33,006 bases of DNA from Zoogloea sp. (GTDB lineage: Bacteria; Pseudomonadota; Gammaproteobacteria; Burkholderiales; Rhodocyclaceae). Position numbers and translations under genes: made by a program. This document shows, piece by piece, positions 21,572 to 23,680 of the stretch (position 1 is its first letter; each line of letters opens with the position of its first letter). The notes under the pieces are model-generated. The model was not told the origin of the DNA. It was given only the letters and a program-made list of their open reading frames with translations, and searched no databases. Location: assembly GCA_023150095.1 (NCBI GenBank), contig JAKLLO010000067.1:1-33006 (forward strand), given 5' to 3'.

Positions 21572-23680
21572 ATGGCCTGGACCCTAGACGATTTCGATTA
21601 CCCGCTCCCTCAGGAACTGATTGCCCAGGCTCCCCTCGACCGCCGCACCGACAGCCGCCTGCTCCAGGTTGGCCCGCAGCTGGCCGACCTGCATTTCGCC
21701 GATCTTCCCACTCTGCTCGCCCCCGGCGACCTGCTGGTCTTCAACGACACCCGGGTGATCCACGCCCGCCTGTTCGGCACCAAGGACACCGGCGGCCAGG
21801 TCGAGGTGATGATCGAGCGCCCCCTCGGCGCCCACGAAGCCCTCGCCCAGATCCGCGCCAGCAAGTCACCCAAGCCGGGCACCCGGCTGATGCTCGAAGG
21901 CGCGCTTGAAGTTGAAGTGCTCGGCCGCGCCGGCGAGTTCTTCCACCTGCGTTTTCCGGCCGGCGAAGATCTCGTCGTGCTGCTCGAACGCCACGGACGC
22001 CTGCCGCTGCCGCCGTACATCGAGCGCACCGCCGGCAACGCAGATGAATCCCGTTACCAGACGGTCTTCGCGAAGAACCCGGGCTCGGTCGCCGCGCCCA
22101 CCGCCGGCCTCCACTTCGACGAGCCGCTCCTCGCCTGCCTTGCCCAGATTGGCGTCAATAGCGCCTTCGTGACGCTCAACGTGGGTGCCGGCACCTTCCA
22201 GCCGGTGCGCGTTCATGATCTGTCCGAGCACAAGATGCACACCGAGGCCTACTTCGTGCCCCAGGCCACCGTGGACGCCATCGCCGCCGCTAAGGCCGCC
22301 GGCAAACGCGTGGTGTGTGTCGGCACCACCAGCATGCGGGCGCTGGAATCCTGCGCAAAGGGTGGCCAGGCCGTCGCCGGCGAGGCGGAGAGCGACCTGT
22401 TCATCCTGCCCGGCTACCACTTCAACGTGGCCGACGCGCTCATCACCAACTTCCACCTGCCCAAATCCACGCTGCTGATGCTGGTCTCCGCCTTCGCCGG
22501 CATGGACACCATCCGCCGCGCCTACGCCCACGCCATCGCCGAGCGCTACCGCTTCTTGGACTTCCGAATGAAATACGAACTCCTCGCCACCGACGGCGCC
22601 GCCCGTCGCGGCCGCCTCACCCTCAACCACGGCACCGTCGACACCCCGGCCTTCATGCCGGTCGGCACCTACGGCTCGGTGAAGGGCATCTCGCCGCAGG
22701 ACCTGCGCGACATCGGCGCCCAGATCTGCCTGGGCAACACCTTCCACCTGTGGCTGCGCCCGGGCCTGGAGGTGATGGAAGCCTTTGGCGGCCTGCACCA
22801 GTTCATGGCCTGGGACGGCCCGATCCTCACCGACTCCGGCGGCTTCCAGGTGTTCTCGCTCGGCGCCCTGCGCAAGATTACCGAGGAAGGCGTGCGTTTC
22901 AGCTCGCCGGTCAATGGCGACAAGCTCTTCCTCACCCCCGAGGAATCCATGCGCATCCAGAAGGTGCTGAACTCCGACGTGGTGATGATCTTCGACGAGT
23001 GCACGCCCTACCCCGCCACCGTCACCGAGGCCGCCGATTCCATGCGCCTGTCCCAGCGCTGGGCACGTCGCTCGCGGGACGAGTTCGATCGCCTCAAGAA
23101 CAACAATGCCCTCTTCGGCATCGTCCAGGGCGGCATGTTTGAAAACCTGCGCGACGAATCCCTCGCCGGGCTCGAGGAGATCGGCTTCCACGGCTACGCC
23201 ATCGGCGGCCTGTCGGTGGGCGAGCCCAAGGACGACATGCAGCGCATCCTGCACCACACCGCGCCGCGCCTGCCCAAGGACAAGCCCCGCTACCTGATGG
23301 GCGTCGGTACGCCGGAAGACATCGTCTTCGCGGTGCAGGCCGGCATCGACATGTTCGACTGCGTGATGCCCACCCGCAACGCCCGCAACGGCTGGCTGTT
23401 CACCCGCCACGGCGACGTGAAGATCCGCAACGCCCGCCACAAGTCCGACACCCGCCCGCTCGACGAGACCTGCGACTGCTACACCTGCCGCAATTTCTCG
23501 CGGGGCTATCTGCACCACCTCAATCGCCTCAACGAGATCCTCGGTGCGCGTCTGGCCACCATCCACAACCTGCATTACTACCAGCAGTTGATGCGCGACC
23601 TGCGCGACGCCATCGCCAGCGGCACCCTCACCGACTACGTCGCCCGCTTCCATCGCGAGCGCGCCGGCGAGAGCGCCTGA
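21572..23680 (+). CDS. queA-tgt: QueA-Tgt fusion: queuosine biosynthesis in one reading frame
   Basis: A single uninterrupted 702-residue frame. Residues 1 to about 328 are QueA (SAM:tRNA ribosyltransferase-isomerase, preQ1-tRNA to epoxyqueuosine-tRNA): [79 protein letters not shown]. Residues 333-702 are tRNA-guanine transglycosylase (preQ1 insertion at G34), with D89, D143, nucleophile D264 and zinc ligands C302, C304, C307 and H333 (Tgt numbering, identical to E. coli). The two enzymes catalyse consecutive steps. The junction [15 protein letters not shown] shows that the conserved QueA end (normally FSYGDAM after RYRF) and any stop codon are missing. Either a natural fusion by deletion or an assembly error. 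No good ribosome-binding site precedes the Tgt methionine. Confidence 0.9.
22568..23680 (+). other. tgt: Tgt moiety of the fusion (possible internal start at 22568)
   Basis: ATG 22568 is the canonical Tgt start: the following 370 residues align with E. coli Tgt without offset through the zinc site. The moiety is complete: substrate aspartates, [49 protein letters not shown] and the terminal helix. Upstream bases (TTGGACTTCCGA) give only GGA as a possible Shine-Dalgarno, so separate initiation would be weak. yajC-secDF, which often follow tgt in proteobacteria, are absent here. Confidence 0.8.

Follow-up and report, generated by a model that had tools for sequence, protein, structure and literature searches.

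Do queA and tgt, which in one Zoogloea strain share a single open reading frame, encode a working bifunctional enzyme, or does the frame record the accidental loss of the QueA end, in the cell or merely in its draft assembly? The DNA analysed here (the window) is a stretch of 33,006 bases. As the initial annotation had stated, a frame coding for 702 residues, QueA first and Tgt after it, runs uninterrupted on the plus strand from ATG to TGA (21572-23680, 702 codons plus the TGA), and the family models of both enzymes match it above their cut-offs. Its parts are:

21572..22555, plus strand: queA part, codons 1-328 (MAWTLDDF...ERYRF); NF001140 442 bits, PF02547 401 bits, and an alignment with 22 other QueA sequences
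22556..22567, plus strand: junction codons LDFR; a single 29-base gap against the nearest relative, G003, after 22557, and an alignment of 12 Zoogloea junctions
22558..22560, plus strand: GGA lying 7 bases 5' of the start codon of tgt and kept despite the deletion (putative ribosome site); same GGA and spacing in G003
22568..23680, plus strand: complete tgt, starting at its own ATG (MKYELL...) and ending with TGA; TIGR00430 560 bits, gapless 98% identity to the G003 Tgt over 370 residues
22569..22571, plus strand: former queA stop TGA, which overlaps the ATG of tgt and is now out of frame; sequence and comparison with relatives

The first half belongs to the QueA family (tRNA preQ1(34) S-adenosylmethionine ribosyltransferase-isomerase, which turns preQ1-tRNA into epoxyqueuosine-tRNA; PF02547, TIGR00113/NF001140) and matches its models nearly end to end: NF001140 covers residues 4-331 (cut-off 324 bits; model positions 2-336 of 346), TIGR00113 scores 386 bits against a cut-off of 267, and PF02547 exceeds its cut-off of 25. 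However, the C-terminal FS-x-GDAM end of the family is missing; homology to intact QueA stops at the first F of the FF pair in RYRFFSYGDAM. The second half is a bacterial Tgt (PF01702; TIGR00430) of full length and far above cut-off, with TIGR00430 matching residues 335-695 (cut-off 306.75 bits; model positions 1-361 of 368) and the Pfam match to PF01702 likewise above its own; together with the gapless alignment to the Tgt of G003, this upholds the view that Tgt is complete from its canonical methionine. The Tgt translation carries C-x-C-x-x-C and a downstream H, which I take to be the Tgt zinc site. Bacterial Tgt has no QueA-derived N-terminal part, whereas that of the window would have one if translated as a fusion.

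How the frame came to be is best seen against the nearest relative, taken as Zoogloea sp. 1C4 (NZ_SSXU01000008.1), whose contig 129 holds the collinear stretch; 7,135 bases of that record (L041) recur in this contig of G003 with no mismatch. A single end-to-end alignment (33,041 columns, 95.1% identity) contains eleven gaps; ten are of one base, and the remaining one consists of 29 bases absent from the window directly after CGCTTCTT, i.e. at the queA/tgt junction, where it is the only indel longer than one base in the aligned 33 kb. The QueA and Tgt proteins of the two genomes are 96% and 98% identical, respectively, and gene order is the same across the collinear 33 kb; the relative, however, has two overlapping frames where the window, short of 29 bases, has one. 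The missing bases comprise the last base of the Phe codon, the nine codons for SYGDAMFLT and the first base of the Arg codon; hence the SYGDAM-type end of QueA is indeed lost, as had been proposed. Since 29 is of the form 3n+2, queA is carried into the reading frame of tgt, which overlaps it, and the old TGA is left out of frame. Elsewhere in the same alignment, two one-base indels of opposite sign occur at window positions 19160-19190, near the start of a predicted nitronate-monooxygenase-like gene (17909-19186, minus strand); a further gene of the window (19416-20312) combines an adenylate/guanylate cyclase domain with an FHA domain.

Two other elements of the initial annotation, namely that the queA stop codon was deleted and that an intergenic spacer had disappeared, do not hold: the letters ATGA are still there in the window DNA, out of frame, and the relatives have no spacer to lose. 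Indeed, queA and tgt overlap in all scorable congeners, through ATGA in 17 of 18 and TAATG in one (L020), and the intact QueA end is kept in 18 of 18; four of the 22 congeners were left unscored, as the contig of G001 breaks off within queA, in G013 the match starts within tgt at the end of a contig, and neither G016 nor G022 produced a match. When deletions of 1-60 bases were simulated in this stretch of the 18 congeners, 10,263 of 32,040 fused the queA and tgt frames, this being the outcome for about 96% of 3n+2 deletions and for none of other lengths. Fusion is thus what a small deletion at this place can be expected to bring about incidentally, and it is no evidence of design. As to the cause of such a deletion, recombination between short repeats was considered and set aside, there being no microhomology in the comparison with G003; a TTCTT repeat in L017 was likewise discarded as a source, as it would allow a loss of 24 bases, a multiple of three giving the wrong frame.

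The part of QueA that is gone is highly conserved. SYGD is absent from the window and is kept in each of the 100 other QueA frames that reach this point (96 distinct sequences), which come from relatives chosen for their similarity to the window, some of them sharing a genome; 94 match the broad FSYGDAM-type pattern and six, all rhizobial, read SYGD[SA]S. These frames are what remains of 104 reaching residue 300 once three copies of the window and L116, which runs off its contig, are left out. Likewise, the solved QueA chains 1vky, 1wdi and 1yy3 end in FSFGDAMLI or YSLGDAMLI, S-x-G-D being kept in all three. In the AlphaFold model of an intact relative's QueA (mean pLDDT 93.0), residues 329-333 lie in a loop and the last strand spans 334-338, both in blocks of pLDDT 95-96, so that the QueA of the window is without the closing beta-strand and the S-x-G-D loop of a fold predicted with confidence. 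A Foldseek search with the same model returned the three solved QueA entries (whole-chain rmsd 7.8-9.4) and taught nothing beyond membership of the family. According to a 2023 review (PMC10491745), the solved QueA structures are without bound substrates, and a catalytic role of the motif is therefore not derivable from that source; from conservation and the predicted fold, I infer that the motif would be needed for QueA activity.

Among the genomes searched, the fused arrangement is seen in one draft. The junction pattern, allowing up to three mismatches, occurs in one of 23 genomes of the genus, the window's own. With the fused protein as query, three overlapping sets were searched: 100 relatives, 96 of which gave a match, 398 phylum genomes (387 matching) and 395 family genomes (377 matching). 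Together they amount to 826 distinct genomes including that of the window (G000), with one genome per species. Among the matches listed in the 825 others, which reach down to about 413 bits (relatives), 485 bits (phylum) and 655 bits (family) and could thus miss divergent fusions of lower score, no second uninterrupted full-length fusion was found, although recurrence in related genomes is what would mark a conserved bifunctional QueA-Tgt. Likewise, in 120 loci a single frame matches both halves only in three copies of the window; the similar stretches retrieved were the best 80 of at least 590. Neither the junction nor the fused-protein searches support the fusion as a trait common to the relatives, and the long open frames of G008 and G009, which had been considered as fusions, have tgt alone within them.

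The full-length matches listed also include queA and tgt in the same frame but with at least one stop inside the match, in 17 genomes of the phylum (one of which, G089, was also among the relatives searched) and two of the family. A case in point is offered by L140 (G524) and L141 (G506), both from the window's family, each with one frame and a single internal stop (TAG in G524, TGA in G506). Stop read-through in same-frame genomes such as these would produce a fusion.

If QueA had been out of use for long, its upstream part might be expected to tell. In queA codons 1-328 the window branch has 3 amino-acid and 20 silent changes and the G003 branch 4 and 24; in tgt the figures are 2 and 19 for the window and 2 and 22 for G003. 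These counts use outgroup rows in which one genome, G008, is present twice; two amino-acid differences in queA are assigned to neither branch, silent changes without a majority are uncounted, and three further amino-acid differences (329-331) lie in the non-homologous junction and are kept apart. Thus, no excess of amino-acid change over the G003 branch is found in codons 1-328, upstream of the break. That decay of queA has not begun fits a very recent loss, a still-working QueA or an assembly error alike.

The assembly, which is 88.84% complete, yields one QueA match and no second queA. The gene queG is present (positions 1-336 of 337) and without stops, so the next enzyme of the pathway is kept; a lost queG, which was considered as the reason why QueA might be dispensable, is thereby ruled out. 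Moreover, since the ATG of tgt and the GGA seven bases upstream of it are retained, Tgt may be translated either alone or as part of the fused chain.

How, then, is the frame to be explained? A local assembly error, by which 29 bases dropped out during construction of the draft contig while the organism itself carries the usual overlapping queA-tgt pair, is the main rival explanation, though a less likely one than a true deletion. It draws on the quality of the draft (5.04 Mb in 317 contigs, 5.86% contaminated, besides the completeness given above), on the restriction of the junction to the window's own genome among the 23 of the genus, on the unaltered rate of amino-acid change in queA up to the break, and on the lack of microhomology flanking the 29-base gap, which counts against a true deletion. 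Yet the last point cuts both ways, for assembly errors do not usually take the form of 29 bases lost without a repeat, which counts against an artefact as well. Against an error stands also the soundness of the surrounding sequence: the window makes up contig C62 in its entirety, free of any N and collinear with G003 from end to end with no further indel above one base, and a second contig of the same assembly, C116, has no indel longer than six bases in its main alignment with G003 (11,552 columns). The same contig 116 (L158:1-1800), when compared with positions of about 41,600-50,200 on contig 129 of G003, gives many overlapping partial alignments of 75-86% identity, which point to an extended array of similar repeats close to the contig edge; the contig of the window ends opposite position 39,346 of G003, about 2 kb before this repeat-like region.

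A working bifunctional Tgt-QueA, in which the junction stretch replaces the lost end of QueA and tRNA moves between the two active halves of one chain, Tgt first and QueA second, is highly improbable. The fused frame is intact with both halves above family cut-offs and the queA half undecayed, and other fusions of Tgt, to transporters, are reported in PMC11130926: there, as in the window, Tgt lies within a longer chain, but the partner is a transporter and not QueA. No QueA-Tgt fusion came to light in searches of the open PubMed Central literature, which is weak evidence of absence, nor in a term search of the main text of a gene-fusion survey (PMC4921024). However, the replaced motif is one that every other frame compared retains, the closing strand is lost with it, the linker between the halves is of four residues only, no recurrence appears among the matches listed, and a simple 3n+2 deletion accounts for the fused frame. 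The AlphaFold model of the fusion is good for the Tgt half and low-scoring for the QueA half; in the QueA rows checked, however, the underlying alignment had put most residues on the Tgt half (for L041, 64 on the QueA half and 263 on the Tgt half), which makes the model uninformative. The channelling of tRNA envisaged in the initial annotation accordingly finds no support, the fusion being known from one draft genome, with the C-terminal motif of QueA deleted and a geometry typical of 3n+2 deletions; the alternatives that it also named, loss of QueA activity through a deletion and a faulty assembly, agree better with the findings. Taken as a whole, the proposal that one Zoogloea strain has a single-chain QueA-Tgt, that its QueA works without the conserved end and that Tgt passes tRNA on to QueA within the same polypeptide, is still harder to credit. 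If a working fusion existed, two enzymes of successive tRNA-modification steps would be arranged in a new way, but the evidence speaks against this.

The best reading, and on balance a probable one, is a lone, recent deletion that probably inactivated QueA while Tgt is still made. One deletion of 29 bases would have occurred at the end of queA in a single Zoogloea lineage and, through its 3n+2 length, would have brought queA into the overlapping frame of tgt. Translation would then produce QueA(1-328)-LDFR-Tgt as one chain and possibly free Tgt as well, from the kept ATG. The QueA half would be inactive, because the closing beta-strand and the S-x-G-D loop are gone, and the Tgt half would presumably work; tRNA would then carry preQ1, at which the pathway would stop. 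I infer, then, a deletion truly present in the DNA of the cell, with QueA dead and Tgt active.

If the deletion is real, the strain offers a natural test of the need for the conserved C-terminal motif of QueA, and it would show whether a strain with preQ1 in place of queuosine keeps tgt and queG. Otherwise, the locus stands as a caution that almost every short deletion will fuse overlapping genes, provided that its length falls in the right class.
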